DNA from: a virus
IMG/VR virus record: IMGVR_UViG_3300027844_000445
Span: 1-28,040 of that record
Reading direction: 5' to 3' (one strand)
DNA: 28,040 nt
Shown: piece after piece, positions 4,778 to 26,435 of the stretch
Numbering within the stretch: the first letter of the stretch is position 1
How the letters are laid out: each line of letters opens with the position of its first letter
The notes under the pieces: model-generated
Told to the model about the DNA's origin: nothing
What the model saw: the letters and a program-made list of their open reading frames with translations, nothing else
The model's database searches: none
Translations under genes and position numbers: made by a program

Positions 4778-4792
4778 AACTATTTTTTCTTA

Positions 4793-5518: not shown

Positions 5519-5835
5519 TCTGTTACCTCATCCCAAGTTGTTGTGTCTTCATTCCATGTATAATCTTTATCATCATCTGGCATTGCAGTTGGAGGTTGCC
5601 AATCGAAACTGGCATCTAATGCCCATGATGGATAAGGCTTTGGTGAAATGAATACGTCATTGGCTTTGTCGTATGTGTATCCTACGCCTGCATACTGTTT
5701 TCTGAAGTTGTTATTGTAGCTAGTTTGTATCCATAAGAAGGAATCTCCAACAAGTCCTGAGTTTATAAAGTCCTGTTCTGCCACGATTACTTCTGTGACT
5801 ATATTATCTTTATCTATTTTTGCGAAATGACTCAT
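5515..5835 (-). CDS. MSHFAKI-type phage tail-associated protein
   Basis: The 106-residue product starts MSHFAKIDKDNIVTEVIVAE. It contains AGVGYTYDKANDVFISPKPYPSW and ends in a Trp/Asp/Thr-rich tail (YTWNEDTTTWDEV). This sequence style is very common in cyanophage and other marine phage genomes beside tail fibre genes, where it is annotated as hypothetical or structural. No enzyme motif, TM or signal is present. It overlaps both neighbours by ATGA, so it is translated with the glycine-rich fibre upstream and the receptor-binding fibre downstream. I am confident of the family resemblance, less so of the role. Confidence 0.9.
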   Translation of the reverse strand: MSHFAKIDKDNIVTEVIVAEQDFINSGLVGDSFLWIQTSYNNNFRKQYAGVGYTYDKANDVFISPKPYPSWALDASFDWQPPTAMPDDDKDYTWNEDTTTWDEVTE

Positions 5836-7265
5836 ATTGCATACCTTATTATTACGATTCCTGAACCACCAGTTCCACTTCCTCCACTACCAGTGGTGAT
5901 ACCTAGCCCACCGCCACCGCCACCAGTATTTGCTCCACCATTACCTCCCTTAGTGGGAGTTCCAGCTATTCCTGCATTTAAAGCAGAACCTCCGGCTGCA
6001 CCACCAGTACCTGAAGCTGCTCCACATCCTCCACCTCCGCCACCTGCACCTCCAGCACCAGCAGTTGAAGTAGAATATTGTGAACCACCTCCACCACCAC
6101 CAGCCCAAGACAGAGAAGTACCATTGATAGATGACACGAACCCAGTACCACCAGCACCAGATACAGAACCTGAGTCTGCAAGACCTAACGCACCGCCACC
6201 GCCACCTCCGGCACTGGTATATGGTTGTGTAGATGTGTCTACTGATGTTCCACCTGCATAACCTTGAAAGGTCACTGTTCCAAAAGTTCCTCCGTCATTT
6301 ATTCCAGTACCACCAGCACCAGCAACCCAACCTCCTCCACCACCAGAACCACCTGCAAGACCTGCTGTATCACTCGAAGTATGATATTTTCCTCCTCCAC
6401 CTCCTCCAGTAGCTATTATTGAACCTAGTGATGTGTTGACTCCATTATTACCTTTTGCTTGTGAAGTATCTGCTAGAGGTGTACCTCCGGCTCCAATTGT
6501 TATAGTATGATTGCCTGTAGCCATTGAATATCCGGTTGCATACCTAATACCTCCAGCACCACCCCCACCAGCAGACCCTCCTGAGCCACCTCCAGCAACT
6601 ACGAGATAGTCAACTGTACCAGTCATAGTATGTACTGTGAATGTACCAGAAGTTAAAAAGGTATGAACTATATAGCCTGAGTAAGATGTAATTGTTCCAC
6701 CAGTAGCAATATTACTTAAACTAATCCAAGAAGTACCATTGTAAACTTTTACTGTGTCACTCGTACTGTCATAATAAATTGCTCCTTCTGCTGGAGAGCC
6801 GGGAGCAGAGCCGGGTGTAAGGACGATAGAGGGGGCTGTAACTGCTCCTGAGAATGTTCCTCCTGAAGCGGCACTAACAAAGTCTGTTGGTATAGTGACT
6901 GTCTGCCAACTTGATGTACCATCTCCATCTACTCGTAAATACTTCGTAGTTCCTGTTACTCCAGTTGAGATAATATCTGCACCTTCTACAGTAGTTGCAC
7001 TAAAGATCGACAGGGCAACAACCTCTACAACGTCTGAGGCCGCCAATGCAGATAGACCTGTAATAGTGCTTCCATTCGTTGCAATGCAGTCAGTACCAAC
7101 AACTAATTTTACACCATTTAAAAATACGCTGACCTGACCAGAAGTGTAGCCTATGGGTACGCCAGCATCATCTGCTGAGACTACTGTTTCACCACCAGAT
7201 GCTGATGTGTATGTGAACCTCTGGGCTTTGCCCATGCCATCTGGTTCTGCTCCTATGTAACTCAT
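5832..7265 (-). CDS. Glycine-rich tail fibre protein
   Basis: This 477-residue fibre has three parts. An N-terminal domain (about 1-90) with GQVSVFLNGVKL and DVVEVVALSIF matches the attachment domain of many marine phage fibres. A linker (about 100-190) contains KYLRVDGDGTSSWQTV and AIYYDSTSDTVKVYNGTSW, a motif repeated across fibre proteins. A C-terminal glycine-rich domain (about 195-477) begins YIVHTFLTSGTFTV and LVVAGGGSGG and ends GGSGIVIIRYAI. Such glycine-rich domains form polyglycine-helix sandwiches in some adhesins. The tip is related to that of the gene at 7285-9456. A ribosome site (AAAGGAAAC) precedes the ATG. The opposite strand carries a long proline-rich shadow frame created by the Gly codons. 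Confidence 0.92.
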   Translation of the reverse strand: MSYIGAEPDGMGKAQRFTYTSASGGETVVSADDAGVPIGYTSGQVSVFLNGVKLVVGTDCIATNGSTITGLSALAASDVVEVVALSIFSATTVEGADIISTGVTGTTKYLRVDGDGTSSWQTVTIPTDFVSAASGGTFSGAVTAPSIVLTPGSAPGSPAEGAIYYDSTSDTVKVYNGTSWISLSNIATGGTITSYSGYIVHTFLTSGTFTVHTMTGTVDYLVVAGGGSGGSAGGGGAGGIRYATGYSMATGNHTITIGAGGTPLADTSQAKGNNGVNTSLGSIIATGGGGGGKYHTSSDTAGLAGGSGGGGGWVAGAGGTGINDGGTFGTVTFQGYAGGTSVDTSTQPYTSAGGGGGGALGLADSGSVSGAGGTGFVSSINGTSLSWAGGGGGGSQYSTSTAGAGGAGGGGGGCGAASGTGGAAGGSALNAGIAGTPTKGGNGGANTGGGGGGLGITTGSGGSGTGGSGIVIIRYAI

Positions 7266-7284
7266 GTTTGTTTCCTTTTAATTT

Positions 7285-9456
7285 TTATACTGCGTATCTA
7301 ATTATTACTATTCCTGAACCGCCACTTCCTGCCGCACCAACTTCATCCCATTCTCCTGCTCCTCCACCTCCACTACCAGTATTTGCACCGCCATTCCCAC
7401 CAACGGCTTGGGGAGAACCAACAGTTCCTGCATTTAAACCTCCTATTCCTGCTAAGCCATTGACCGCACCTGCTCCTCCTATTGTTCCTCCTCCACCACC
7501 ACCTAGTCCACCTGAGTTTACTCCATTAGAAGTACTATAACCAGCACCACCTCCACCGCCAGCCCAATAGAATCCAGTATTATATGCAACACTATTATGA
7601 GTACCAGACCCAGAGGTATGTCCTAATGCATCTGGAGTTATCCAAGCTATTTGGAGTCCATCACCACCTGTTCCACCTACTGACCCACTAGTGTCTCCCC
7701 CAACAGACCCAGCATCGGTTGCACCACCACCTCCACCTCCCATCTGCGAGTTTGGTGATGGATTAGAGCCACCAGCACTGCCATAATTAGTATATGAGCC
7801 ACCTACCGTTGTCTGACTTTGTGCAGGTTGGGTTGCCGCAGAAGCGGTGAGGGTCTGATGACCCCACACACCACCACTACTCCCACCTCCGGTAGATGGA
7901 GGATTTGGGTTTGCGTATGCCCCTCCAGCACCACCACCAAGAGCAGTAAGAACTGTAGTGCTTCCCAAAGTAAATGTTGAACCATAGCCATTATAACCAG
8001 CATTGGTTGATGCCCCAGCACTTCCTCCCGATTCTCTTCCTGCTCCTCCATCTCCTACAGCTACAACATAAGTACCAGCGGCTAATGTTATTCCTGTGGC
8101 ATAAACTATACCTCCTGCTCCACCTCCACCACCATGTCTGGAACCTCCTGCACCACCTCCAGCAACAACGAAAACATCTGCTGTCATAGAACTGGTAACA
8201 ACAAAATTGAAACTACTTGAACTATTCGTGTATGTATGAACCCTGAAACCAGTATAAGTTGTTATTGTTCCACCATTTGATGTGGGTAATGCCTTTGTTA
8301 TTATATTAAATAATCTAGGGGAACTTTGTGCCTGTGCATCTATTGCATCAACAGTAATATTATAAGTTGTGTAGGTAGTACCAGTAATAGTTCCAGTAAT
8401 ATCACCTGTAGATGTACTCATTGCCAAGCCGGGAGGTAATGGACCACTCGATAGTGCATAAGAAGTTGTAGCCGGTGATCCACCAACTAGATCAATTGTA
8501 GAAATTGCGGAACCTGTAATAAAAGCAGATAATATATTCCCAGAAGCAGGAGAAGTCCAGCCGGGTAAAGCAGAATAATCAACATTAATACTTGCCGACA
8601 AACCACTTGTATTCCCTACTACCAAACCATCAACCTTAGTTCCTGCTGTTTTTGCTGGAGTACCTGTGACAGTAATTTGACTTGAACTATCTCTTGAGAC
8701 TGTGCTTGGAGCAGTACCATCTATAGTAACAGTTGCACCTGTCTGAAAATTAGTGCCAGTAATTATGAGTGTTTGTGTATTAAAGGTTAATGATATTGGA
8801 GAACCTGAACTTGCAGTAGCGGTTGGTGCTATAACAAAAGAGGCATTAGTTATGATTGATGAAACAGTAGTATTAAATGATAAAACCGCTGAAGAATTTG
8901 TTGCAGTTGCATTTGCAGAAAGCTCAAAAGATGTATCAGTTATAATTGATAAAATAGTTGCTCCAGCAGGAACTCCTGTAAATTCGGCTACTGTCATTCC
9001 AACTACAAGTCCAGTAGTAGACCCTGCAACTGTGACTGTTGCATCAGTATTAGTAAGACCACAAGTAAGATTGCTAACAGTAGAAATACCTGTTCCCTTA
9101 ACTACCTGTCCTACTACTATTCCAGTTGTAGATGCGGCTAATACTGTAGTGCTACTCTGGGTAGTACAACTGAGATTAAATTCACCAACAGTATCTAATG
9201 CGGTATCATCACCGGGATAATTTAGTGAGGAAACTGTAGGTGGAGAATCTATTGAAGCCCATCCTGTTGCATTATACTGTTGCATAATGCCAAGAGTGGT
9301 ATTGTACAGCATCATTCCAACCACAGGAGTCAACGCATCTCTTTCAGTTGTTGTTGCTGAAGGAATCTTAACGTAGTCACCTAAAAGGTTCAGGTTCGAG
9401 GGTATGTCAGCAGAGATTAAAGCGGCTCTGCCAGATTTTCTTCCAACGTAACTCAT
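7285..9456 (-). CDS. Large tail fibre with IPT/TIG, He_PIG-like and glycine-rich domains
   Basis: The 723-residue protein starts with a short fibre head containing the MMLYNTTLGIMQQYNATGW motif (about 48-66). An IPT/TIG-like Ig fold follows. It starts near PPTVSSLNYPGDD (72-84) and resumes at LIITGTNFQTGATVTIDG (230-247), the two parts being separated by about 130 residues. The gap holds two copies of a beta module with STTG(I/L)VVG, one inside the other. Next comes a He_PIG-like Ig domain (about 325-385: YALSSGPLPPGLAMSTSTGDITG). A glycine-rich tip (about 400-723) ends GGSGIVIIRYAV. The start overlaps the previous stop as ATGA. The role is host binding at the fibre tip. Domain names rest on motif recognition. 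Confidence 0.92.
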   Translation of the reverse strand: MSYVGRKSGRAALISADIPSNLNLLGDYVKIPSATTTERDALTPVVGMMLYNTTLGIMQQYNATGWASIDSPPTVSSLNYPGDDTALDTVGEFNLSCTTQSSTTVLAASTTGIVVGQVVKGTGISTVSNLTCGLTNTDATVTVAGSTTGLVVGMTVAEFTGVPAGATILSIITDTSFELSANATATNSSAVLSFNTTVSSIITNASFVIAPTATASSGSPISLTFNTQTLIITGTNFQTGATVTIDGTAPSTVSRDSSSQITVTGTPAKTAGTKVDGLVVGNTSGLSASINVDYSALPGWTSPASGNILSAFITGSAISTIDLVGGSPATTSYALSSGPLPPGLAMSTSTGDITGTITGTTYTTYNITVDAIDAQAQSSPRLFNIITKALPTSNGGTITTYTGFRVHTYTNSSSSFNFVVTSSMTADVFVVAGGGAGGSRHGGGGGAGGIVYATGITLAAGTYVVAVGDGGAGRESGGSAGASTNAGYNGYGSTFTLGSTTVLTALGGGAGGAYANPNPPSTGGGSSGGVWGHQTLTASAATQPAQSQTTVGGSYTNYGSAGGSNPSPNSQMGGGGGGATDAGSVGGDTSGSVGGTGGDGLQIAWITPDALGHTSGSGTHNSVAYNTGFYWAGGGGGAGYSTSNGVNSGGLGGGGGGTIGGAGAVNGLAGIGGLNAGTVGSPQAVGGNGGANTGSGGGGAGEWDEVGAAGSGGSGIVIIRYAV

Positions 9457-9797
9457 GTAATCTCCAGATAACTTGTAATCACATTCATGGAATTTGCTGT
9501 ATTGCTTCTAACTTTTATTGAGTCTGAGGTTTCCATAACGAGCTTGTAGTCCCCTCCAAGCACCACCAAACTTCCGCCCGTGGGAATCGGGGCATCCTTG
9601 ACTATCCATGTTTCTGTACCACCATTAACTAGCTTAACTCCAACTGCAATAACTCCTGCTGTTATATTGGCTATTGTCATTCCAATTAAAGTAGTCTGTG
9701 TTGCTGGACTTGTGGTAGCAACTAGAGATAGTGCAGGACTATCTGTATCAGCCGCTAAAGCAGCGTTAAAAGTGTCATTCTTAAATGTGTTTGCCAT
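9453..9797 (-). CDS. Small virion structural protein (beta-rich)
   Basis: A 114-residue soluble protein starting MANTFKNDTFNAA. It alternates beta-strand-like stretches (TTLIGMTIANITAGVIAVGVKLV, TWIVKDAPIPTGGSLVVLGG) and ends with DSIKVRSNTANSMNVITSYLEIT. This layout is common for small proteins beside tail fibre genes in marine phages and resembles the protein at 11306-11680. Both have a PIP(T/L)P-like turn followed by hydrophobic strands and then (D/S)-I-KV near the end, so distant paralogy is possible. AAGGAT precedes the ATG. It overlaps the next fibre by ATGA. A decorating or fibre-collar role is only a guess. Confidence 0.85.
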   Translation of the reverse strand: MANTFKNDTFNAALAADTDSPALSLVATTSPATQTTLIGMTIANITAGVIAVGVKLVNGGTETWIVKDAPIPTGGSLVVLGGDYKLVMETSDSIKVRSNTANSMNVITSYLEIT

Positions 9798-9820
9798 ATT
9801 TATCCTTTAATTTCAATTAG

Positions 9821-11296
9821 TTATCCAAGAGCGATACTCATAGCTACGGCTGAGTTGTTTGCTTCTAATTGGGTTTCTGTTAGAGTAAGTCCAAATGCCT
9901 GCCATGCAGAAGCATCATAAAAACTTAGTTTGTTAGTCGTAGTATTATAATACAAGTCCCCTTCATCATTATCTGAGCCCGGAGCAGAACTTGCGATTCT
10001 ATACCTATCTGCAAAGTCATTGACACTACTTATATTATCTGCAACTGTTTCTATATCACCTATTACTCCAGTAGCACCTAATAAATCCATATCTGCTATT
10101 ACTGGTGCAAGACCTAACAAGGCCATATCTTCTGTTACAGTAGCTGTTCCAAGTCTAGCTAGGTGACCTGTGGTTGCATGTGCCATATTAGACGTACCAA
10201 GCAATGTAATTTCACCATCTACTGCTGCTACAAGGGCTACCTCTCCATCAACATCTGCTACTTTAGTTACATCTCCAGTTGTAATACTAGCAACCTTAGT
10301 TACATCACCAGTAGTAATTACTGCAACTTTACTTACATCTCCTGTAGTTATATCTGCAACTTTACTAACATCACCTGTGGTTATAACAGCAACTTTTGAA
10401 ACATCCCCAGTTGTAATAACAGCCACTTTTGACACATCGCCAGTAGTAATATCTGCGACTTTACTTACATCACCAGTTGTAATATCTGCAACTTTTGAGA
10501 CATCTCCAGTAGTTATAACGGCTACTTTTGAAACATCTCCAGTCGTAATAACGGCTACTTTAGATACATCTCCTGCTGTTATACCAGCAACAGTTGATAC
10601 ATCAGCACCATCAGTTCCTATATTTGAGACAGTAGTTATATCAACTCCAGCAGTACCAAGAACAGCTAATTGTCCTATTTCAGTATCTATTGCAGCTACT
10701 TTTCCAATATCAACTGCATCTGCAACAGCCGCATCAATATTTGTTTGTTGACCTGATGTTGGAGTAGTTTGTTTCCATGCGGAAGCAGTATCATCCCATA
10801 CTTTCATTACTTCTAATGTTGTATCATAATATAATGCTCCGTCATCTAAGGCATCACCATCATTATCTTTTCCTACATTTGCTCCTACTTCTCTGGACGC
10901 AGTAGTATGCGAGCCTAAATATTTATCATCAAATGCATCTGTATAACCCTCAGCCAATGCTGCTGAAGCTGCAGCATTACTTGCATACTTCTTTGCAGAA
11001 TATTCCCCTGTAATAACTTCTGTAGCTTCTACATGGGAGCCTCCACCCAAAGCCCATTGCTTTGCAGTGCCACCTGTCGCAGCAATACCCTGTGCATATT
11101 CCTTTGCGGAATACTCATTTGTCTGAGCATTATTTACAAAATCAAATACAGTAGTCCCATCTGTTAATGTGACCCACTCTTCAACTGTCTGAAGCTTGAG
11201 AGATACATCATTTGCACCATCAATAATATTCAAAGCAGACGTTACTGCTAACTCACCGCTACCTGCACCAATATATACTGGGGATTTACTACTCAT
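9821..11296 (-). CDS. Tail fibre with ten-copy 11-residue repeat shaft
   Basis: This 491-residue fibre has an N-terminal domain (about 1-60, with WVTLTDGTTVFDF). Two EYSAK(E/K)YA motifs follow (61-68 and 98-105), as often seen in marine phage fibres. A GALYYDTTLEVMKVWDDTASAW linker module lies at 153-174. A shaft follows: residues 239-348 are ten consecutive 11-residue units of the form ITTGDVSKVA(V/D). The shaft continues in degenerate form with DGE(V/I) units and LLG/MA segments to about 415. The C-terminal part repeats the linker theme (GDLYYNTTTNKLSFYDASAW, about 452-471). GAGGAG precedes the ATG. The shaft probably trimerises. The role is host attachment. Confidence 0.92.
   Translation of the reverse strand: MSSKSPVYIGAGSGELAVTSALNIIDGANDVSLKLQTVEEWVTLTDGTTVFDFVNNAQTNEYSAKEYAQGIAATGGTAKQWALGGGSHVEATEVITGEYSAKKYASNAAASAALAEGYTDAFDDKYLGSHTTASREVGANVGKDNDGDALDDGALYYDTTLEVMKVWDDTASAWKQTTPTSGQQTNIDAAVADAVDIGKVAAIDTEIGQLAVLGTAGVDITTVSNIGTDGADVSTVAGITAGDVSKVAVITTGDVSKVAVITTGDVSKVADITTGDVSKVADITTGDVSKVAVITTGDVSKVAVITTGDVSKVADITTGDVSKVAVITTGDVTKVASITTGDVTKVADVDGEVALVAAVDGEITLLGTSNMAHATTGHLARLGTATVTEDMALLGLAPVIADMDLLGATGVIGDIETVADNISSVNDFADRYRIASSAPGSDNDEGDLYYNTTTNKLSFYDASAWQAFGLTLTETQLEANNSAVAMSIALG
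10253..10582 (-). repeat. Ten-copy 33-bp coding repeat in a tail fibre gene
   Basis: The segment encodes ten successive 11-residue units (consensus ITTGDVSKVA followed by V or D; the last two have T for S). At the DNA level the 33-bp units differ mainly at third codon positions while the protein is almost invariant. This points to selection on the protein sequence after old duplications rather than a recent expansion. Confidence 0.93.
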
Positions 11297-11305
11297 ATAA
11301 CTCCT

Positions 11306-11680
11306 CTATACTCTTTCTATCATTGACAAAATAACAGAACATGTTTGTGTTGAAGTAACTTTTATAATATCTCCTGTTAATACAGGAGTACCTGCATTAT
11401 TTAATCCATGCTGCAAAATCATTTTACCGGGTATAAGATCTAATGAACTATCTGCTGGTAATGGTATTGTATCTGCTAACTTAACAACAGTTGCATCATA
11501 AAAAGCAGTTAAAGTAATTGTTAATTCTCCTGCACTTGTTGAAGTTGATGCCACATAAAATCCAATTATAACTGAATCTGCCGCAGTGGGAGTCGCATCA
11601 TCGCTTGCAGGGGCTGTAAATATTGTTGTTTCTGTAGCAGCCGGAACATTGACTGCATACCTCATATATCTTTCTGCCAT
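11306..11680 (-). CDS. Small virion structural protein (beta-rich)
   Basis: A 124-residue soluble protein starting MAERYMRYAVNVPAATETTIF. It has alternating strands and a turn (ADTIPLPADSSLDLIPGKM) and ends TGDIIKVTSTQTCSVILSMIERV. The organisation resembles the 114-residue protein at 9453-9797 and similar small proteins among marine phage fibre genes. A strong ribosome site (AGGAGATTAAT) precedes the ATG, directly after the stop of the fibre-base gene upstream. I infer a virion component near the fibre attachment site, with no direct evidence of position or partner. Confidence 0.83.
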   Translation of the reverse strand: MAERYMRYAVNVPAATETTIFTAPASDDATPTAADSVIIGFYVASTSTSAGELTITLTAFYDATVVKLADTIPLPADSSLDLIPGKMILQHGLNNAGTPVLTGDIIKVTSTQTCSVILSMIERV

Positions 11681-11681
11681 A

Positions 11682-12071
11682 TTAATCTCCTAATATCATT
11701 TGATTTTTCCTAGCAACTCTTTCCATCATTGCCTCTAAAGTTTTTTCTGTACCCTGATCAATAGCATATGCATTATCTAAAACTACTGAACCAGAAGCGT
11801 AAGTCACTTTACCTGTTCCAATTGTAGACAATAAATTACTTGATGAATCACTAATTGTCCCAGACCACTTTTGATTGGTCAGGGTTTTATTAGTAAAAGA
11901 ATCTGTACTATCTATTGTTGGAACTGTATAGCTTGCTGTACCATCATGAACCTTTAATCTCCAAGGATCTCCACTTGCATCTGATTTGAGGACTGTAATC
12001 TCTCCTTCTGAACCAGTAAATGTTCCATGTTCAGTAGCAGTCCCTCTTCTAAATTGTATACTTATTCCCAT
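11682..12071 (-). CDS. Fibre protein with major-tropism-determinant N-terminal-like domain
   Basis: The 129-residue protein starts MGISIQFRRGTATEHGTFTGSEGEITV and continues with WRLKVHDGTASY. The pattern RRGT..EH..F.G.EGE(I/L)TV followed by LRVHDG is the hallmark of the Mtd N-terminal-type domain that anchors many phage tail fibres to the baseplate or tail. The C-terminal half has a fibre-like TNKTLTNQKWSGTI segment and a helical end (EKTLEAMMERVARKNQMI). It is short, with no receptor-binding tip of its own, so it may be a fibre base or adaptor. The start overlaps the preceding connector gene as TAATG. Confidence 0.87.
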   Translation of the reverse strand: MGISIQFRRGTATEHGTFTGSEGEITVLKSDASGDPWRLKVHDGTASYTVPTIDSTDSFTNKTLTNQKWSGTISDSSSNLLSTIGTGKVTYASGSVVLDNAYAIDQGTEKTLEAMMERVARKNQMILGD

Positions 12072-12997
12072 TACCTCCTCACTATCATTCTATTTAAGTT
12101 TACCCCACCAGTTATAGAAGCAGGATTTAATGGTTCAACACGATGAGCATCTGCTATAAGTTGCATCTTCTTGTTCATAAAATATCCACTCTTCTCAACA
12201 TTCCTTAAGTCATGTTCTTTTAAATATGCTCTTTCTAATGTTCCATACGTAAGTGCATCTACCCACACTGAATCTATATCACATGTAGTTTGATAATCAG
12301 TTGATGCAATAATAAATGTATCTGTATAATTACTAATGGTTTCTGCTGCAGAATCAAAGGTCAATGAAATACCTGCATCATCAACCAATGCTGTTGATGT
12401 TCCAACAATCCAACCTTGCAAAGTTGTTACTATTATCCGTACTACAGAATTATCTGCATTTGTAGTATCTGTATACTGATATGGAACCTCATCACTCATT
12501 CTTGGTGGACGAGATGTCCCTGTTAGTTTTAATGTTGCTTCTACAGTTGGTATAGGCCACACAGTTATAGTGCCTGAAGATCTTTGGTCAATCACAAGTG
12601 CCTGAGGAATGCCTGTAACAGTTGTCCAATCCTGTATCCTACTCCATAGAGGATTACCAAATATCTTGGTGATAGAAAACTCGCCTTCTGCTGTAGTAGC
12701 AGGGAGCCTTCCCTCCGAAGAAAGTGACTTCATTTCAGAGGTTGTGACAACTGGCAATTCCCTTCCACTAATTGACCCTCCCCCACTGATATCCATAAGA
12801 GTAGAAGGAAGTGCTATCTTATAGTTAGTGGCACTAATAACTACTTCATTGTCTTCTACCGGCAACCTAATAGTCCTCACAAGATCTAAAACTGCATCAT
12901 GAATATAATTATTTAATTCAGTCTTAGTCCAACGAATATATTCTGTATCTTGAAGAACAGTTATTACCCGTGACCTGATATCAACTAAATCAATCAT
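12071..12997 (-). CDS. Neck / head-tail connector protein (DUF6682-like)
   Basis: The 308-residue protein opens with a helical segment (DIRSRVITVLQDTEYIRWTKTELNNYIHDAVLDLVR), then PSTLMDISGG and WPIPTVEATLKLTG, and ends with a helix (WVDALTYGTLERAYLKEHDLRNVE). A W-[ST]-..EL..(Y/W)I.dA helix near the N-terminus, then an LP-x-x-L/M strand and a C-terminal AL.Y..L.+A helix, is the pattern of phage neck/tail-completion proteins, including DUF6682-type proteins. It lies between two unknown proteins after the capsid gene and the fibre cluster, the expected place for a connector. Its start overlaps the upstream stop by ATGA. The specific family is a moderate-confidence call. Confidence 0.8.
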   Translation of the reverse strand: MIDLVDIRSRVITVLQDTEYIRWTKTELNNYIHDAVLDLVRTIRLPVEDNEVVISATNYKIALPSTLMDISGGGSISGRELPVVTTSEMKSLSSEGRLPATTAEGEFSITKIFGNPLWSRIQDWTTVTGIPQALVIDQRSSGTITVWPIPTVEATLKLTGTSRPPRMSDEVPYQYTDTTNADNSVVRIIVTTLQGWIVGTSTALVDDAGISLTFDSAAETISNYTDTFIIASTDYQTTCDIDSVWVDALTYGTLERAYLKEHDLRNVEKSGYFMNKKMQLIADAHRVEPLNPASITGGVNLNRMIVRR

Positions 12998-13455
12998 GCA
13001 ACTTCAACTCTTTGTAGCTGTGCATTAACCTTATCCTTATCAACCTTAGATGAAACAGGAGTTTTTAATACTTGCACATTGTACCTGCAAACATCATAAC
13101 CAATTAATGGTGAACCTTCCTGTGCCTGATGATACTTTGTTTCAACTGCATCCATAAGAACACTGAAATGACCCGGAGGTATAGCCCTACGAGAATTTCT
13201 AGGGAACCTCAGCACCCAATCATTGTGCGTAACTGTAACTGGCCCCATTTGAGATGGGTCATCACCATACCCAATTACTACAACGCCCCAACCCTCAGGT
13301 GTTTTTAAGTCCTTACCAACTTCTATAGCCATGTCTTTCTGGAATGTTTTATGTACAGATACATTCTTTCTACGGCCTGAATCATACATCGGGCTATTAA
13401 TCTGATGCCCATATTCTCCTACTGCAAGTAGTCCTCCTGCTAATTCGCCACTCAT
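12994..13455 (-). CDS. Phage structural-module protein of unknown function (153 aa)
   Basis: A soluble 153-residue protein with EGWGVVVIGYGDDPSQMGPVTV in the middle, followed by NDWVLRFPRNSRRAIPPGHF and a basic C-terminal part. No TM, signal or enzyme motif is visible. Both ends overlap the neighbours by ATGA, so it is part of a tightly coupled set with the 145-residue protein upstream and the connector candidate downstream. Genes in this position (after the capsid, before the tail adaptor) usually encode head-completion or neck proteins. I do not recognise it and assign no function. Confidence 0.85.
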   Translation of the reverse strand: MSGELAGGLLAVGEYGHQINSPMYDSGRRKNVSVHKTFQKDMAIEVGKDLKTPEGWGVVVIGYGDDPSQMGPVTVTHNDWVLRFPRNSRRAIPPGHFSVLMDAVETKYHQAQEGSPLIGYDVCRYNVQVLKTPVSSKVDKDKVNAQLQRVEVA

Positions 13456-13889
13456 GTCATTGCTCTCGTTTTAATGAAAAATAAAATTCTGCCAGAAGTA
13501 GGAGGATCACTTCCCCTTAATCTGACTGTTAATCGGATCGTTTTATTAGATCCGTCCGGTGGAAGAAATACGGATTCTGGACGTTGCTGAAACGAATGTG
13601 GCTCCTGCGGTAATCCAGCCCATTTTAAATATAACTCTTTTTCTTCCTTTACTCTACTCACCCTTCCTACACATATATCTGCCGATACACCCAAAAATGG
13701 TTCAGTCAATATAACTGATATTCTTTCCGGCAAAGTTTCTGGATAAAGATAGTGATCAAAGTAAGCACTGGTAATCAGAGTATCATTTCCACCATTAAAA
13801 CTTTCATGGTTGATTTCAATTATACTCGTTTCCCCTATCGCTTCTGAGACAGGGGCAGGCGGAACCCACCCCTGAAATCGTTGTGTCAT
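13452..13889 (-). CDS. Phage structural-module protein of unknown function (145 aa)
   Basis: The 145-residue product starts MTQRFQGWVPPAPVSEAIGE and is rich in beta-type stretches (RISVILTEPFLGV, KTIRLTVRLRGSDPP, SGRILFFIKTRA). The C-terminal part with two long strands suggests a compact beta domain. No membrane segment or catalytic motif is seen. It lies 9 nt after the major capsid gene and overlaps the next gene by ATGA, which is a usual site for head decoration or head-completion proteins. Either role would be inference. The family is not recognised. Confidence 0.85.
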   Translation of the reverse strand: MTQRFQGWVPPAPVSEAIGETSIIEINHESFNGGNDTLITSAYFDHYLYPETLPERISVILTEPFLGVSADICVGRVSRVKEEKELYLKWAGLPQEPHSFQQRPESVFLPPDGSNKTIRLTVRLRGSDPPTSGRILFFIKTRAMT

Positions 13890-13898
13890 TCAACTCTA

Positions 13899-15149
13899 TT
13901 AACTAATAGTAGATGCACCACACTCGATACGATAAAGCCAGTCTTCATTGAGGATCTGGCAAGCATACCAGCTCTTCCATCCGACTGAACCAGATTGACC
14001 CAAAGGATCAGTAACTGCTGGTTGAGGCATTACTACCTTAGGAATCACAGCATCATAACCAGAGAGTGATACACACCCTATGCATTCTGCTGAGAAAATA
14101 ACGATAGGATATACCTGCACAGTATTGTTAGATGCATTTGTAACAAGCTTCAGAGAAGCAATAGTTGCACCTATCTCCGTTGCTGCTCCTGCTTCAGCAT
14201 AATTACTGGTGTCAGCAACAGTGCCAGCCGTAGAACCAAATGATTGGCCTGTATGACCGGGCGTGTAGCCACTTGTTTGAGTTTCCAGTACATTCGTATC
14301 AATCATCTCTGTTCCATCTGGTGTCTTACCAAACGGAGATGCCTGAGTTGTAAGTACGAATCTAACTACGCCAACACTACCTAATTCTCCCGGTAGCATT
14401 TGCTGACCATTATTACTGTACTTCACATAAGGTATAAAGCCCGGAAGCTTCTCAATGTCCTTACGTAAATCAGTATGCCCTACAGCAACAAATGCTTCAG
14501 GTACTGGTTCAGTATTGTATTTGGCGGAGGGAGTCATCTGCTTCGCAATCTTGCGAGCTTCATTATACTCCAGTGTACGGACTGCCGTATCAAGAAGATT
14601 GGTTGTCGAACCAGTAGTATCACCAGTTGTTCCGCCAATCTCTGCATCTACTGTTGCTCGTGTAGTACCACCAGCATAAGCCGCCTGAGTACCTGAACGT
14701 GCATGTAGAAATGTAATGAAGTCCATCAGTTCGGCAGCTTGAATTGATTGCCGTTCTGTTATCTGCTGAATAATAGGATCTGACGCTGCGGCAACCAACA
14801 CATCAGTAGTGGCAACATATGAACCATATTGGTTCAACTTTACCTTGATGATTGTCTGCAACAGTGTATCGGCTGGGGGCTTAACACCTTCAGCCAATGG
14901 AACGAGAGGTAGTGCGAACTTTTCAAAACGCTTCCACCTAACCTCAAGTCCTTCCTTCTGTGCTTTAGTCTCCTTCTGTCCGAACCGAGCCATTATCATG
15001 GATCGTTTCGCTATTGATAGGAATTTTTTTTGGATCTTAAAGGCCTCTGTTTCATCGAGAGAACCATATTTCATGGTTCCGCCCATAGAGGATGCACCTG
15101 TAGCACCTCTATTAGCGTTTGATCCGCCACTTGTCCAAGTTGTAGCCAT
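13899..15149 (-). CDS. Major capsid protein, N4-gp56-like family
   Basis: The 416-residue protein shows the order of motifs I associate with the N4-gp56 family of HK97-fold capsid proteins. These are a helical N-terminal arm, then ARFGQKETKAQKEGLEVRWKRF (about 54-75), PLAEGVKPPADTL (84-96), an LNQYGSYVATTDVL segment (105-118), and later EAFVAVGHTDLRKDIEKL. LPGELGSVGVVRF follows, where family members have LPGE-G. It forms the head shell. It follows a scaffold-like gene by 58 nt, the usual portal-scaffold-capsid order. A perfect TATAAT lies just before the ATG (15161-15166) but is too close to serve as its promoter. A Gly/Thr-rich loop sits near residues 160-185. Confidence 0.92.
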   Translation of the reverse strand: MATTWTSGGSNANRGATGASSMGGTMKYGSLDETEAFKIQKKFLSIAKRSMIMARFGQKETKAQKEGLEVRWKRFEKFALPLVPLAEGVKPPADTLLQTIIKVKLNQYGSYVATTDVLVAAASDPIIQQITERQSIQAAELMDFITFLHARSGTQAAYAGGTTRATVDAEIGGTTGDTTGSTTNLLDTAVRTLEYNEARKIAKQMTPSAKYNTEPVPEAFVAVGHTDLRKDIEKLPGFIPYVKYSNNGQQMLPGELGSVGVVRFVLTTQASPFGKTPDGTEMIDTNVLETQTSGYTPGHTGQSFGSTAGTVADTSNYAEAGAATEIGATIASLKLVTNASNNTVQVYPIVIFSAECIGCVSLSGYDAVIPKVVMPQPAVTDPLGQSGSVGWKSWYACQILNEDWLYRIECGASTIS

Positions 15150-19584: not shown

Positions 19585-21378
19585 TTATGCCCTCACGTAA
19601 TATTCTCTTCTTTGAGACTTTGGTTGAATTGCTATCTGTGGCCCCGGTATATGTGGGTGCATATAACACATGTACCCAGCAATAGCTAACGACATTACCC
19701 TATCATCGTGGCAACCATGCTGTGCCGCTTCCTTACCATTGTTATGTATAACGAATGTCTGTAGCTCATCTATTGATGCCTTTGAAAATATTTCAATTTG
19801 TTCTTCACGAATAAGTCTACGCAATAAATCAAGTATTAATTTTCTAGTTTTAACATTTGTATTAAACCCTAATCGTTTCTTCTGCCTCTGCCCCCGTTCA
19901 TCCAGAGCCTTCTCTATGTATATATTGTCATACTGATGGATTGATGATAAAAACTTCAAGGTTAATAACCCATGATTGTTATTTTCTACTGCAACAAGTG
20001 CATGGTTATACCATATACCTATAGTAACTATTACCCACGCAAGTAGATCTGGATCTATACGTGCACTCCATGTGCCACACTCCTCATATGTTTCTGCATC
20101 CAAGACTGTAATCACAGAATAATCCGGGTTACCTGTTTCAGATATTATGCCTTCTGCAACATCGACTCCTATCCTATAATGCCTGCCATCCTGTGGGGCG
20201 TTGAATACAGTAAACTCTCCATCTCTACTTTGATCCATAAAATATCTCATCTTTTCTTCACCACCTATATTTTGGAATCCATTAACAGGAACCTCAAAAC
20301 GCTTAGGCGGAAAATCTCGCTCCCTTTCCTCTGCTTCAAACCACATTTTAGTTAAGACCACTGAATCAAATGCACTCCTTCCTGATGCGACAAAAGCTTC
20401 TCTCGCAGTAGTAGGGTATTCCTGATGGAACACATTTAGGTCGCCTTGACATTCCGGAGAGATAATTTTATTCCTCCGCCACTTCAAGTGTTCAAGGGTT
20501 ATTTTAAACTCATAGGTAACATCGTCTGCTATATAGGATGTTTCCACACCTAAAAGAGTTTTCTCCTCAGTTCCCCCATATACAGGATTTGATCCCAGCG
20601 ATTTTTCAAACGTATCATCCTCCAACTCCTCTTCACTTAGTTCTGTTTTATATTCATCAAACACAAACCAAGGGAAAAATACAGTTTTAAGGCCGCTATC
20701 ATCTTTCTCCGCCCTCCACCATTCTTTTTCAAAATAGTTACCAACACCCTTTGCAGTACTCTCCATCCATATTTCCGTCCCATATCCCTGTACAACACAG
20801 TTCATCATACCAGTTGCATATTCACGGGCACGACCTCCCCAACGGGCGACCTCGGAACAATGAAGCATGTCGATCCCCGCACCTACTACCTCAGAGCCTT
20901 CTACAGTAGACATCCCGTACCTAGAGTTCAGCCCTTTGCCATCACTAGAACCCCATGTAAGTTCCTGCTTACCTGAGTAATGTGATAGTGGCTTAATAAA
21001 AGTGGGGTAGTTCTGTTCCATAACCTTAGTCATGGCAAACATTTCTGAAGTTGTATTCTTAGAGTGTGTGCAGATATGCACTAATTGATTAAACTGGGTG
21101 GCTGCACGTTTAAACATACGTGCCTGAACATATGTAGATATACCGAATCGCCTTGCTTTCAAGACAATTATCCTTACATGCCCCTTATCTTTTAACTGCT
21201 GCTGTGCTACACCATGCAAAATCTTCTGCACAGAATTCATTACAAAAGGAATCAGCTTCTTTGTTCCTAATTCCTGAATCTTTACACAGTATTGAAAATA
21301 AGTATCATGATCCTGAAGCCGATCCATCAGCTCCTGCATCGCCTCCTTATCATCCATCCTTGGAGCTTGTTGTGCCAT
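19585..21378 (-). CDS. terL: Terminase large subunit
   Basis: The 597-residue packaging motor has both domains. The ATPase part shows a variant Walker A (KARRFGIST, 74-82), Walker B with catalytic Glu in GIDMLHCSEVARW (168-180, Glu176) and a coupling motif MESTAKG (205-211). The EYPTTAREAFVASG block (320-333) marks the end of the ATPase domain. The RuvC-like nuclease domain carries acidic residues in YRIGVDVAEG (Asp406), VAVENNNHG (Glu465) and CHDDRVMSLAIAG (Asp558/Asp559). It cuts concatemers and pumps DNA into the procapsid through the portal. It overlaps the resolvase gene by 29 nt and is followed by an HNH gene. Length and motifs are complete. Confidence 0.97.
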   Translation of the reverse strand: MAQQAPRMDDKEAMQELMDRLQDHDTYFQYCVKIQELGTKKLIPFVMNSVQKILHGVAQQQLKDKGHVRIIVLKARRFGISTYVQARMFKRAATQFNQLVHICTHSKNTTSEMFAMTKVMEQNYPTFIKPLSHYSGKQELTWGSSDGKGLNSRYGMSTVEGSEVVGAGIDMLHCSEVARWGGRAREYATGMMNCVVQGYGTEIWMESTAKGVGNYFEKEWWRAEKDDSGLKTVFFPWFVFDEYKTELSEEELEDDTFEKSLGSNPVYGGTEEKTLLGVETSYIADDVTYEFKITLEHLKWRRNKIISPECQGDLNVFHQEYPTTAREAFVASGRSAFDSVVLTKMWFEAEERERDFPPKRFEVPVNGFQNIGGEEKMRYFMDQSRDGEFTVFNAPQDGRHYRIGVDVAEGIISETGNPDYSVITVLDAETYEECGTWSARIDPDLLAWVIVTIGIWYNHALVAVENNNHGLLTLKFLSSIHQYDNIYIEKALDERGQRQKKRLGFNTNVKTRKLILDLLRRLIREEQIEIFSKASIDELQTFVIHNNGKEAAQHGCHDDRVMSLAIAGYMCYMHPHIPGPQIAIQPKSQRREYYVRA

Positions 21379-21844
21379 TCAATATATTTAATTTTAAATA
21401 TCTTGCAATTAATACAGCATCAGCAATCCCATGGTCTTTAACTCTTGTAAGTGATAGCTCTGGGTAAAGCTGTGCAACCTTCTGTATAGACGCACCTTTC
21501 TCCCTACCCATATCTGGCATCATAGCCTTTTTCCATGATTGAGGCTGAATCAAATGATAAGGTATTCCATTACCCACACATAATCCACGAAGGAAACCAT
21601 ATGAAGCCATGTATCTCCCAGTAGAAACTATACCCTGCTTTGGCATTGTCTGGCTCTTCTCAAGTCCGATACTCATGGGCCGGAGTCTCCACCTGCCAAA
21701 TATAGTTGCTAGCTTTGCCTCATCGAGTTCCCTCTTCTTGCCTACCATAATAATAGGCATATCCATTACAAATTCTATTTTTAAATTTTCATCTAAAACT
21801 GCTAGTGCCCCTGAAAAACCGGGGTCAATTCCCATTAAGTGCAT
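21350..21844 (-). CDS. RuvC-like Holliday junction resolvase
   Basis: The 164-residue protein starts MHLMGIDPGFSGALAVLD, the RuvC first strand with catalytic Asp7. It has LEKSQTMPKQG (Glu62), a SYGFLRGL helix, a SWKKAMM motif and a final KDHGIADAVLIARYL with Asp137/Asp142 as the last acidic site. This matches small RuvC/RNase H-fold resolvases of phages. The enzyme would trim branched replication intermediates before packaging. AAGGGGACTA before the ATG is a good ribosome site. The gene overlaps both the upstream zinc-protein gene (20 nt) and the terminase gene (29 nt), so the three are coupled. Confidence 0.92.
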   Translation of the reverse strand: MHLMGIDPGFSGALAVLDENLKIEFVMDMPIIMVGKKRELDEAKLATIFGRWRLRPMSIGLEKSQTMPKQGIVSTGRYMASYGFLRGLCVGNGIPYHLIQPQSWKKAMMPDMGREKGASIQKVAQLYPELSLTRVKDHGIADAVLIARYLKLNILNGTTSSKDG

Positions 21845-22426: not shown

Positions 22427-22672
22427 CTATTTTTCCTCGTTCTCCAACATATAAATCATTGTGCCAACAGTATCTGCTATCTCCAACCAGAATGTTTCTG
22501 GAGAAGTATCTGCCTTACCTGCCTCCATCATTAACTCCTGAAATGATACACCAGACTTCCACGAGGCTGCGGCACATCCTAACATCAGTGCCAACTGTCT
22601 CCGGGAACTCATTATGGAATCATTTTCTAGCTTCTGTTCCTTTACTGTTTTCTGCCTCTTCCCTTTGCTCAT
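22427..22672 (-). CDS. Small phage protein of unknown function (up to 81 aa)
   Basis: From an ATG at 22672 the frame gives 81 residues, overlapping the small-terminase candidate by 53 nt. A second ATG at 22612 would give about 61 residues and avoid the overlap. Neither start has a convincing ribosome site. The shared part contains SSRRQLALMLGCAAASW and an acidic end (YMLENEEK). The first 20 residues are Lys/Gln-rich and may not be real. No domain is recognised. It stops 2 nt before the zinc-protein gene. Confidence 0.7.
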   Translation of the reverse strand: MSKGKRQKTVKEQKLENDSIMSSRRQLALMLGCAAASWKSGVSFQELMMEAGKADTSPETFWLEIADTVGTMIYMLENEEK

Positions 22673-23261
22673 CGTTAATTATCTCTAGTGAGGGGATGGT
22701 GATACTTGGCTCGGCAATAATTTCCCCTTCAATTACCTCCCCATGCATTTGCACGTTTAGTTCCTTAAGGGCATCTTCTACCCTATATACGTTCTCATTC
22801 TTTTGTTCTATGTACTTATACTCATTCGGCATTGCCAGTGCTATCCTTTCACTGCGGATGATCTTCATAACAGTATCTGCCTTTGAAGACCATATACTTA
22901 ACTCACTTGTATCCTTTGAGCTAAGCACCTTCTCCTTTAGATTGTTTAGTTCGTCTAGGTGCTGGTGGGAAATATTTGCCCTATCGTCTGCATACTTCTG
23001 AATCATCCTTGTATGCATACTTGTAAGAGCTTCCTCCCTCCTAGATGCATACTTCCAGTCTCCTGCATTGATATACTTGGTAAGTGTACTCTGCCAGAAC
23101 CCATACTTCTCACATAACTGTGATCGTGTAAGTATACCGGCCTCATAGTCAACCCTTACAGCAGCCTTCATTACCTCCCTGTGATGCTTAGCTTCATGCT
23201 TAGATCCAGTTGTAACCTTAGTTGCGTTGCTGTTTCCTCTTGTCTTTACTGGTTTTCTCAT
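22620..23261 (-). CDS. Candidate small terminase subunit (HTH protein)
   Basis: The 213-residue protein has a basic N-terminal tail and a helix-turn-helix region at about 34-69 (RVDYEAGILTRSQLCEKYGFWQSTLTKYI, then NAGDW). This pattern, with a GILT.sqL..kYG..qstl..yi and a following W, is typical of DNA-binding small terminases. Helical oligomerisation-type segments follow (about 75-150), then an acidic tail. It lies upstream of the large terminase in the same operon, separated by a zinc protein and a resolvase, which supports the call. It would recognise phage DNA and load the motor. An alternative is a transcription regulator with an HTH. Confidence 0.78.
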   Translation of the reverse strand: MRKPVKTRGNSNATKVTTGSKHEAKHHREVMKAAVRVDYEAGILTRSQLCEKYGFWQSTLTKYINAGDWKYASRREEALTSMHTRMIQKYADDRANISHQHLDELNNLKEKVLSSKDTSELSIWSSKADTVMKIIRSERIALAMPNEYKYIEQKNENVYRVEDALKELNVQMHGEVIEGEIIAEPSITIPSLEIINDEQREEAENSKGTEARK

Positions 23262-23798: not shown

Positions 23799-24208
23799 AT
23801 TACCTCTATTAGTTGACATAGTGAAATGGGGATGTTATAAAAGTCCTCACCTTCCGGATACCTCGTGTTACATATGTTCTCTACATACTCCTCCTTCATG
23901 TACTTGCCATCTATGTGCCACGCCTTAGTGCAATCCTTATTTAATACCCAAAACATTACCTTCCTGCCACCATCCATGTACTTCTTCTTCCTATATGGTA
24001 TGTGAACAGTACTCCACATAGTAGGCCACTTATCCTCCCAAGACGTTTTAATCTCCACCTCATGGTAGATATTGACCCAAGATTGTATATCAGGGCCGTA
24101 ATCCTCATATACATTCGTGAATATACCCTTGGAATCTAGGTATCCCCTTACTGCTGTCTTTGCTTTATTGTCGCAAGCTAGGTACGCCTGCTTGTTGAAG
24201 TGGGCCAT
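23795..24208 (-). CDS. PD-(D/E)XK-like nuclease fold protein
   Basis: The 137-residue protein has a helix with conserved-looking KAKTAVRGYL. It then has YGPDI with Asp40, and, 12 residues on, EVEIKTSW with Glu52 and Lys54. The G-PD...(9-20)...ExK spacing matches the catalytic core of the PD-(D/E)XK nuclease superfamily, such as restriction-type and VRR-like enzymes. Later parts (IPYRKKKYMDG, MFWVLN) form further strands and a basic patch. It is coupled to the first leftward gene by TAATG and is expressed directly from the strong leftward promoter. It could process DNA in replication or act on host DNA. The target is unknown. Confidence 0.75.
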   Translation of the reverse strand: MAHFNKQAYLACDNKAKTAVRGYLDSKGIFTNVYEDYGPDIQSWVNIYHEVEIKTSWEDKWPTMWSTVHIPYRKKKYMDGGRKVMFWVLNKDCTKAWHIDGKYMKEEYVENICNTRYPEGEDFYNIPISLCQLIEVI

Positions 24209-24537
24209 TATAATAATCGTCCATGATTTCCTTCTAATAGCTGTTGAAGTGGGATGTTGAAGTTGTCTCCTCCGGGGTTGTATATCTGGGGTGGGAGTGG
24301 AGCCTCCCTTTTCTGGACTGGATGGGACTCCTGAAGCTTCTGCTTCTTAAGTACCCTTTTTAACATAGCCCTGTCCTCCGACATTGCTACCTCATGTGAT
24401 GATGGATGACTGTATTTCTGCTGGTATGTACTGTGCCGAGAAAAAAAGCCCCATACCATTAATGGGATTAGTCCGGAAAATATTAGAAATACCGCTATGG
24501 GATATAACCTGTCCCATATCCTGTCAAATGTGTCCAT
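24208..24537 (-). CDS. Single-pass membrane protein, first leftward gene
   Basis: The 109-residue product has one hydrophobic helix at about 12-33 (YPIAVFLIFSGLIPLMVWGFF) and a long polar, basic and Pro-containing C-terminal part. The ATG at 24537 is preceded by AGGGGG with a 5-nt spacer, a strong ribosome site. It lies about 24 nt downstream of the start site predicted for the near-consensus leftward promoter. As the first gene of the leftward operon it may be made early and abundantly. Possible roles such as superinfection exclusion are speculation. No family is recognised. Confidence 0.8.
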   Translation of the reverse strand: MDTFDRIWDRLYPIAVFLIFSGLIPLMVWGFFSRHSTYQQKYSHPSSHEVAMSEDRAMLKRVLKKQKLQESHPVQKREAPLPPQIYNPGGDNFNIPLQQLLEGNHGRLL

Positions 24538-24567
24538 GATAACCCCCTGTTATTATGTTGAAACCTC

Positions 24568-24596
24568 AGTATACAACCACTATTACAGGATGTCAA
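24568..24596 (-). promoter_or_regulatory. Strong leftward sigma70 promoter
   Basis: Read leftward, TTGACA (24591-24596, perfect -35) is followed after exactly 17 nt by TATACT (24568-24573, five of six -10 bases). It lies directly upstream of the first leftward gene. It is the best promoter match I found in the window. Confidence 0.88.
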
Positions 24597-24625
24597 GTAT
24601 TTTTTTCATGGGGATTTATTCTTGT

Positions 24626-24651
24626 GGGATTCGGGTTTTTGGGGTGGGGGG
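24626..24651 (+). other. G-quadruplex candidate
   Basis: Four G runs of 3, 3, 4 and 6 bases are separated by loops of 4, 5 and 1 nt. A fifth run (GGGG at 24610-24613) lies just before. This satisfies the usual G3+N1-7 quadruplex pattern on the plus strand. The block begins about 30 bp upstream of the -35 of the leftward promoter. Confidence 0.65.
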
Positions 24652-24807
24652 TGTACGAGACTAGGAGTCCCATATATATATATGTACGGGTGCAGGTTCG
24701 CCCGTGGGGGGGGTCTTTTAAACCCGATCAGTTTTATTAGGTCGGATGGAGTGGTCGCATCTGGAAAAGTGCTTCGGGGCAATCGAGCCACTTCCCAGAA
24801 AAAAATC

Positions 24808-24816
24808 TGATAGAAT
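24808..24816 (+). promoter_or_regulatory. Candidate rightward extended -10 promoter
   Basis: TGATAGAAT fits TGnTATAAT with one mismatch in the -10 box (TAGAAT). No -35 match lies at 17-18 nt upstream, which is tolerable for extended -10 promoters. It is about 100 nt upstream of the first rightward gene. Confidence 0.45.
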
Positions 24817-24917
24817 GAAGTTAGGATCTCGGCAGAATACTCTGAGATTTCAGGCACATACCCGCACACACAGTGCGTGTGTATGGTTGCCGAACAACTC
24901 ACACACAGGAGTGAGAT

Positions 24918-25283
24918 ATGTCCAGATATGTAACCGAAGCCCAACTCGACAAAATCATCGAGAAGGCAACGAAGCGAACCATCATGGCTTTCCTCAGCGA
25001 AGCTGACAAGCCACAGTCTAGTGGCAAGCCGAAGGCTGAGCCGAAGGCTGATAAGCTGGGTGCTTGGAAAGCGGAGCTTTTCGATGGTCTTGCAGAGCAC
25101 TACGAAGACTACGAAGGCTCTGAGCTAGCCGAAGCTAGCCGGAAGAAGTTTAACGGCAAGGCTAACCTTCGGTGCATCATGCTCACATGGGGTATACTGC
25201 ACAAGCAACCTTCGGTCAAGGATTTCGTTGGCAACAAGAAGTCCAAAGAGCTTCGCTCTTGGTACAAACGCCAAGTAGCATAA
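24918..25283 (+). CDS. Small basic/helical protein, isolated early cistron, unknown function
   Basis: The 121-residue product starts MSRYVTEAQLDKIIEKATKR. It has a Pro/Lys-rich linker (KPKAEPKADK) and a C-terminal helical domain (about 47-121) with ELFDGLAEHYEDY, LRCIMLTWGILHKQPSVKDF and a basic end (SWYKRQVA). No TM, zinc or HTH motif is firm. AGGAG with a 6-nt spacer precedes the ATG. The coding sequence is visibly richer in G and C than the leftward genes. It is followed within 6 nt by a strong terminator and preceded by its own promoter candidate, so it looks monocistronic. A regulator or host-takeover factor is conceivable, but no homology is recognised. Confidence 0.85.
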   Translation: MSRYVTEAQLDKIIEKATKRTIMAFLSEADKPQSSGKPKAEPKADKLGAWKAELFDGLAEHYEDYEGSELAEASRKKFNGKANLRCIMLTWGILHKQPSVKDFVGNKKSKELRSWYKRQVA

Positions 25284-25288
25284 CCCAG

Positions 25289-25328
25289 AACCCCTTGTGG
25301 ATCTAACGATCTGCAGGGGGTTTTTTTT
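25289..25328 (+). terminator. Strong intrinsic terminator
   Basis: AACCCC and GGATC arms pair with GATC and GGGGTT across a TAAC loop, giving a long stem with an internal mismatch region and a GC-rich base, directly followed by eight T. It ends the first rightward cistron. Confidence 0.93.
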
Positions 25329-25991: not shown

Positions 25992-26002
25992 GGTTAAAGT
26001 GT

Positions 26003-26042
26003 GGGCTGGCAGTTGGTCAGGGGTTTGTACCAGTACCAGCCC
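26003..26042 (+). other. Stem-loop after the CxxC-protein gene
   Basis: GGGCTGG at 26003-26009 pairs exactly with CCAGCCC at 26036-26042. Inside, TGGT can pair with ACCA, giving a two-part stem. There is no following T run, so it is not a standard terminator. A structured RNA element or processing site is possible. Confidence 0.55.
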
Positions 26043-26193
26043 ATGATCCCTCGAGGGTGAGGGTTCATTAAAGGGTTTATAACAGAGCCAGTTAGCTCTA
26101 GTTAAGTAGCTGTTTTATAGGTCTTTTATGTAATACTAGGATACGAATACAATTTCAAGCCTATATATATAGTTTATTTACTATAGAGATATA

Positions 26194-26227
26194 TATAAAG
26201 AAAAAGAAAGTATAAAGAAAAAGAAAG
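26194..26227 (+). repeat. 17-bp perfect tandem duplication
   Basis: TATAAAGAAAAAGAAAG is present twice in direct succession (26194-26210 and 26211-26227). It is purine-rich on the plus strand and sits directly after an alternating AT tract. Confidence 0.95.
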
Positions 26228-26381
26228 TCACATAGCTTTGTAACCTAGCTATAAGTTCCACAGTTACACAACCTCCCCGAATACTGTTTAAAACCACACT
26301 ACATTGAAGCGAAGTACTTACGCTAGGCAATCGATGCTTAGTTAAGTCCTCGTTTCATTCTAGGGTTGTTTTAAGCAACCT

Positions 26382-26435
26382 ATGGCGACAACGTGGTGTT
26401 GTTGTCATCAAGTTAACTCCCAACATGGAGACTAA
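26382..26435 (+). CDS. Possible 17-residue upstream ORF / leader peptide
   Basis: A frame from an ATG at 26382 encodes MATTWCCCHQVNSQHGD and stops at 26433-26435, one base before the ATG of the next gene. It has three consecutive Cys codons and overlaps the hairpin at 26387-26406. There is no ribosome site before the ATG. The layout resembles a leader peptide that could couple translation, but it may be coincidental. Confidence 0.22.
   Translation: MATTWCCCHQVNSQHGD

Follow-up and report, generated by a model that had tools for sequence, protein, structure and literature searches.

Conserved elements between the early and late genes of an uncultured podovirus-like phage suggest a divergent transcription control region

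The region separating the leftward structural genes from the rightward early genes of an uncultured tailed phage is best explained as a region that controls early and late transcription in a podovirus-like phage and has a putative protein-bound core. Judged by arrangement, spacing and conservation in the sequence, this reading was given a probability of slightly above one half (about 0.53). The analysis was carried out on a window of 28,040 bp, i.e. the whole stretch of an IMG/VR virus record, which is a fragment of the phage genome. The eye-catching G-quadruplex candidate proved to be the least conserved part of the region, and the elements around it were kept at fixed spacing. The features on which the argument draws are the following, in window positions.

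19585–21378, leftward structural operon: TerL
22620–23261, leftward strand: gene of a 213-aa protein with a helix-turn-helix-like stretch (read from an alignment)
24208–24537, leftward strand: first leftward gene, 109 aa, without a family match
24568–24596, leftward strand: structural-gene promoter, with -35 TTGACA (24596–24591), a 17-bp spacer and -10 TATACT (24573–24568)
24626–24651, rightward strand: canonical G-quadruplex candidate GGGATTCGGGTTTTTGGGGTGGGGGG (runs of at least three G, loops of 1–7), not kept
24646–24651, rightward strand: upstream G tract (G6); in 16 of 19 sequences a G4–8 run starts 16–19 nt ahead of the core
24657–24683, rightward strand: core, GAGACTAGGAGTCCC-(AT)6, with the odd palindrome GGASTCC at 24664–24670
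24686–24705, no strand assigned: GC inverted repeat ACGGG/CCCGT, between the core and the downstream G tract
24706–24713, rightward strand: downstream G tract (G8), starting at +44 from the core
24761–24798, no strand assigned: imperfect inverted repeat CTGGAAAAGTG...CACTTCCCAG, enclosing a CTTCG box
24808–24816, rightward strand: early extended -10 promoter TGATAGAAT, TG-A-TAGAAT, without an evident -35

The leftward structural set of the window comprises TerL, a portal/head-tail adaptor, a major head protein and a tail fibre, and the early genes run rightward. Nothing similar was found when a phage collection was searched with the window DNA. TerL was 31.0% identical to that of a spring podovirus and 29.6% to that of Roseobacter phage CRP-7, and the portal showed weak similarity (about 22–28%) to Roseobacter and Pelagibacter phages, several of which we take to belong to the HMO-2011-type group. 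A RuvC-like Holliday junction resolvase (21350–21844, leftward strand) adjoins TerL, and an array of about ten copies of a 33-bp repeat (10253–10604) lies inside a tail fibre-like gene (9821–11296). A relative, G001, of 62,229 bp carries an exact 77-nt end repeat and was interpreted as a circle of 62,152 bp, with early, mostly rightward genes at 69–14,200 and late, leftward genes at 14,775–61,738. A physical genome end at the control region of G001 was rejected, as the repeat is exactly 77 nt, presumably a k-mer length used by assemblers. Products of G001 include an early DnaB-type helicase, a YqaJ/RecE-type exonuclease, a phrog_1297 ATPase and a 3,138-aa protein with domain LPD38. The single match of the core in bacterial and archaeal genomes (L068, PBPE01000097.1) belongs to this phage group; the contig comes from a Tara sample of the Red Sea and had been binned with a Dehalococcoidia MAG. 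Being a phage contig in such a bin, it is no proof of host and was rejected as such.

Relatives were fetched by protein scans with the 121-aa product of the first early gene (four loci), with the 109-aa protein (four) and with a TerL alignment (27), and by pattern scans with a 29-base stretch (four contigs), GAGASTAGGAGTCCCATATA (17) and AGAGNNGGASTCCNATATATA (20). A leader-pattern scan added nine stretches, three of which (L069, L070 and L072) looked like chance matches and were rejected as relatives, having neither homologous genes nor a match to the leader model. Fetching by core patterns biases a set towards the core, not towards G tracts, promoters or leader, and core invariance among these relatives is therefore partly a result of selection. 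Among the 27 contigs fetched by TerL, 11 reached the core, three (L021, L033 and L035) stopped short of or inside it and 13 did not reach it; the core TAGGAGTCCCATATA was present in all 11 that reached it. Several rows are near-duplicates, so that counts across relatives are not independent. The relatives form one genus-like group (TerL 80–94% identical in the loci compared), in which the divergent early/late arrangement is kept. L002, L004 and L013 are near-identical to the window; four-fold degenerate sites of TerL, used as a neutral yardstick, were 68% identical to the window in L003 and 66% in L005.

A preliminary description had named a near-consensus leftward promoter, a rightward extended -10 promoter, an AT palindrome and several inverted repeats between the divergent units, and all were found. 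The leftward promoter is sigma-70-like with 11 of 12 consensus matches, and a best site with at least 10 of 12 was present in 14/14 regions, several of them near-duplicates; L056 is a less certain case, its match being displaced to -183. In the rightward promoter TGnTA was kept across a 12-sequence alignment, and in all 14 regions the CTTCG box (24772–24776) preceded the -10 by 38–39 bp. The block 24760–24816 was identical to the window at 57 of 57 positions in L003, L004 and L005; by eye, the outer stem of the inverted repeat around the box was not kept in more distant relatives. The AT palindrome occupies 24669–24690, and the inverted repeats are present, but short. Promoter-like matches within 1,500 bp did not exceed those in shuffled sequence (two found against a mean of 3.2), and both promoters and core are credible because they are conserved in relatives, not because of such counts. 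The two opposed promoters are thus kept in relatives as in a divergent sigma-70 control region.

The core has the consensus GAGAS-NN-GGASTCC-N-(AT)n. L071/L073, which were found by the leader alone, carry GGACTCC in place of the GGAGTCC of the window, so that what the sequences have in common is the odd palindrome GGASTCC. The core occurs as a single copy in each locus having it, and the block 24652–24690 was unchanged from the window at 95% of positions in L003 and 92% in L005. The spacing of palindrome, AT tract and G tract was nearly constant. A downstream G5–9 tract started at +44 to +47 nt in all 18 sequences reaching that far (L031 is cut), its position being held although the intervening sequence varies. 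The upstream tract was G4 only in L012 and L056, and was displaced in L071, L074 and L076, where the nearest run lies at -35/-36. Flank shuffles matched the observed tract by chance in 5–12% of cases upstream and 2–7% downstream, for sequences that are related by descent.

Two ordinary divergent promoters would suffice for divergent transcription, and the relatives all belong to one genus-like group, so that the apparent core might be incidental conservation. Against this, both the core and the G tract at +44 are retained where the upstream flank aligns poorly, and promoters alone are considered an unlikely account of the region. A coding reading of the core was rejected by eye, since beyond the AT tract L013 is in another frame than the near-identical window, and L055 lacks the ATG. 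A GC hairpin ahead of the downstream G tract was likewise rejected, reaching p ≤0.05 in just three of 18 sequences tested (the window, L013 and L076). Limited literature searches, which cannot show absence from print, found nothing on the core.

Five G runs precede the core (GGGG at 24610, GGG at 24626, GGG at 24633, GGGG at 24641 and G6 at 24646), and they fit a quadruplex as had been noted. The canonical pattern at 24626–24651 is the sole rightward-strand match in the window, its distance from the leftward -35 was measured as 30 bp (about 30 bp had been stated), and the highest G4Hunter score of the whole window (2.16) falls on this cluster. The window has two rightward-strand runs of at least six G, both in the control region. 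The proposal that these runs fold into a quadruplex switching the leftward promoter draws on this position and score, and also on G4Hunter maxima of 1.48–2.16 in the region for each of the 16 sequences scored, a range which means that G-richness as such persists. However, the canonical motif occurred in only three of 24 sequences (the window, L002 and L013), all near-identical, and in two of 16 in a smaller set. The block 24626–24651 was 32% identical in L003 (with a 36-bp insertion counted) and 69% in L005, against 68% and 66% at four-fold sites, and thus drifts at about the neutral rate; L004 keeps the whole block. Conservation in relatives, to which the preliminary description had pointed as a check, therefore holds for the recurrence of G runs, one of them at a fixed place, and not for the motif of four G3+ runs with loops of 1–7. 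A conserved quadruplex was rejected, and a quadruplex switch of the leftward promoter is very improbable.

Downstream of the early promoter, the following features were mapped.

24823–24917, rightward strand: 5′ leader of the first early transcript (presumed start), with P1, P2, P3 and a Shine-Dalgarno sequence
24824–24850, 24853–24891 and 24898–24915, rightward strand: leader hairpins P1, P2 and P3
24908–24911, rightward strand: Shine-Dalgarno GGAG
24918–25283, rightward strand: first early gene, 121 aa, with a Lys/Ala/Pro linker and a variable C-terminal part
25287–25324, rightward strand: terminator-like hairpin after the first early gene

Transcription of the early unit probably begins within the 5′ hairpin or immediately ahead of it. 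In each relative the stem of the first hairpin, with this part folded alone, began at the fourth to tenth nucleotide after the -10; in folds of whole leaders, L054 and L060 paired from nucleotide 1 and L059 from nucleotide 4. The first hairpin is followed by a conserved linker TCAGRCACAT (TCACACACAT in L060) and then by a GC-rich hairpin, and most leaders have a hairpin at the Shine-Dalgarno sequence. In all 14 cases the whole leader was more stable than its dinucleotide shuffles (z -2.8 to -5.9), and P1 alone reached p ≤0.05 in 11 of the 14. Leader energies ranged from -32 to -42.5 kcal/mol; 42 control leaders from the window and G001 had a mean of -19.6 and a lowest value of -39.5, and one of them, at -34.1, equalled the window leader. 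Within the five closest leaders all 11 pairs of P1 were kept, two being compensated and four changed on one side. The covariation score of this set was reached by 29 of 500 shuffles, so that covariation is supportive, not conclusive; one P2 pair was unpaired in two sequences. RNAalifold on all 14 leaders recovered parts of P2 and P3 only (11 pairs, four two-sided changes, covariation term -0.26), in an alignment that misplaces P1. A model built from the 14 leaders found L071/L073, L075 and L076, outside the training set, at 49–57 bits. No second copy of the leader with a better value than E 0.09 was found in the window or G001, and no Rfam leader or riboswitch in the window scored above the gathering cut-off of any family. 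Mean pairing probability of the GGAG was 0.28–0.43 in nine leaders, 0.50–0.65 in two and at least 0.90 in four, with a mean of 0.47 in the 42 control leaders. Since pairing differs so between leaders (0.28 to at least 0.90), no common translational switch is shown, and a switch sequestering the Shine-Dalgarno sequence was rejected.

The first early gene also showed a structured coding RNA. Its folding energy lay below the mean of synonymous shuffles in all 11 complete genes (z -1.5 to -6.7; L036, which is cut, was dropped), and seven of the 11 were beaten by none of 40 synonymous shuffles. For comparison, z was -2.0 to +0.2 for seven leftward genes of the window and -1.5 to -2.9 for three other rightward genes. 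In G001, sampled with at most four segments per gene, 28 early segments had a mean z of -2.55 versus -1.03 for 56 late ones (Mann-Whitney p 0.0007); segments of the capsid, portal and terminase homologues were often low too. Such a broad trend would fit long-lived or highly expressed mRNA. The extra folding in G001 (L047-L053) averaged higher on the sense than on the antisense strand. Perfect mini-hairpins were commonest in the first kilobase of G001 (nine with stems of at least 6). Mini-hairpins with such stems numbered 31 in the early region of G001 against 12.3 in shuffles, and two in the early part of the window against 2.4; as the latter is not enriched, they were not carried further as a shared trait. 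The first early proteins have a common layout of N-terminal stretch and Lys/Ala/Pro linker, and their C-terminal part differs even between the window and L011, as if C-terminal domains had been swapped between close phages.

A replication origin had been proposed for the region beside a transcription switch or operator. The divergent transcription part of that proposal is supported, with promoters, box, core and leader kept; the skew gave the origin no support. The expected skew switch does exist: GC skew flips at the control region, with the cumulative minimum there, in both the window and G001. The cumulative maximum of G001, however, lies at the convergent gene junction (13–14 kb), and no sign change occurs near the antipode (~31 kb). 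Skew therefore follows gene strand and neither supports nor excludes an origin, and it was rejected as origin evidence. Iterons beside an AT-rich element were not seen either, 24450–25000 holding only short two-copy repeats. If the core itself were the origin, its AT tract would unwind, the G tract and GGASTCC would bind an initiator, and replication would start between the promoters. The cumulative skew minimum in window and G001, the AT tract, the single copy per core-bearing locus and the DnaB-type helicase among the early genes of G001 would suit such a role, whereas the second skew switch at the convergent junction and the scarcity of repeats speak against it. A more textbook-like site is found in the nearer relatives 1.5 kb right of the control region. 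The AT-rich stretch 25992–26424 has no listed ORF of at least 60 aa, falls to 23% GC and carries TATATATA; two head-to-tail 17-bp TATAAAGAAAAAGAAAG repeats lie at 26194–26228, within the 23%-GC part (26,100–26,250) that resembles a textbook origin more than the core does. This stretch is a possible candidate origin. Its repeat site is kept in G001, L068, L054/L061, L059 and L058; by pattern it was not found in L062, L071, L073 and L075, i.e. in four of ten sequences long enough, all ten of which have the core, a difference that slightly raised the standing of the core as an origin and slightly lowered that of the preferred reading. On balance an origin at the core appears rather unlikely.

The core also heads the structural operon, which contains TerL and a candidate small terminase of 213 aa, and could in principle be a pac site for the small terminase; closure of G001 by a 77-nt overlap is compatible with permuted ends. 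A pac site is often located within the small terminase gene or next to it, yet the gene of the 213-aa protein is about 1.4 kb away from the core. That this protein may be the small terminase is our own reading of an alignment, and no family names it so: its PHROG matches were to unknown, transcriptional regulator (phrog_2789, E 3.3e-5) and DNA-binding families only. Its structural model was too poor (mean pLDDT 54) and a structure search with it was dropped. A packaging site was judged improbable. Searches with large G001 proteins gave no support to promoters of the N4 type, hairpins that a virion RNA polymerase would read. Among solved-structure sequences, nothing at E ≤10 was found for the 3138- and 2101-aa proteins, and the only matches of the 883-aa protein were to antibody heavy chains and a domain of a myosin-binding protein; no polymerase family was found among the part of the G001 genes scanned.

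Under the preferred reading as an early/late control region, host RNA polymerase would read the leftward promoter directly and would also use the rightward one, with help from an activator protein bound at about -51 to -47, where the CTTCG box keeps to one face of the helix. The core would be recognised by a DNA-binding protein, of either phage or host origin, through which the two promoters are coupled or switched, and the downstream G tract would form part of this protein site, not a conserved quadruplex. Polymerases moving apart would leave the DNA between them negatively supercoiled, and the AT tract would open easily there. The 5′ hairpin, the structured coding region and the terminator would together yield a long-lived first early mRNA of about 500 nt carrying one gene. 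A bolder and rather doubtful suggestion is that GAGAS-NN-GGASTCC-N-(AT)n with a G5–9 tract about four helical turns downstream constitutes a new kind of phage nucleoprotein site, placed in a supercoiling trap between the diverging early and late polymerases, whose combined negative supercoiling would open the AT tract and so time the late switch or the start of replication. Should the core turn out to regulate transcription, to start replication or to direct packaging, one of the key cis elements of this group would have been pinned down. The group, known here from metagenome contigs alone and without a close relative in the phage collection searched, now has a concrete, testable control region.

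Several known systems resemble parts of this arrangement. Early/late regions of temperate phages of the lambda immunity/operator type likewise have back-to-back promoters with conserved sites between them and gene blocks in opposite directions. The core described here differs in having just one odd palindrome, accompanied by AT and G tracts, instead of repeated operators; in addition, no integrase was seen among the proteins scanned, which cover part of the genes, and the only regulator-like match was that of the 213-aa protein. Roseobacter phage CRP-7 (MK613349) shares the leftward structural and rightward early genes and has, towards the left of its divergent region, four G runs of 4–5 in a stretch of 47 nt, but no core was seen in it and its sequence is not recognisably related (TerL 29.6% identical). 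In this phage (L065) an open rightward frame of 128 aa at 7609–7995 lies opposite the annotated gp72, with G runs clustered upstream, and the annotated strand of gp72 may be wrong. The hairpin near the presumed 5′ end recalls mRNA-stabilising 5′-terminal hairpins of the ompA type; the predicted fold of the phage leader differs in its three consecutive hairpins and conserved TCAGRCACAT linker. G tracts beside AT-rich DNA are also a feature of the R-loop primers of mtDNA CSB II and ColE1 RNA II, whereas here neither identified promoter reads through the G tracts, and no G-rich transcript is therefore predicted.
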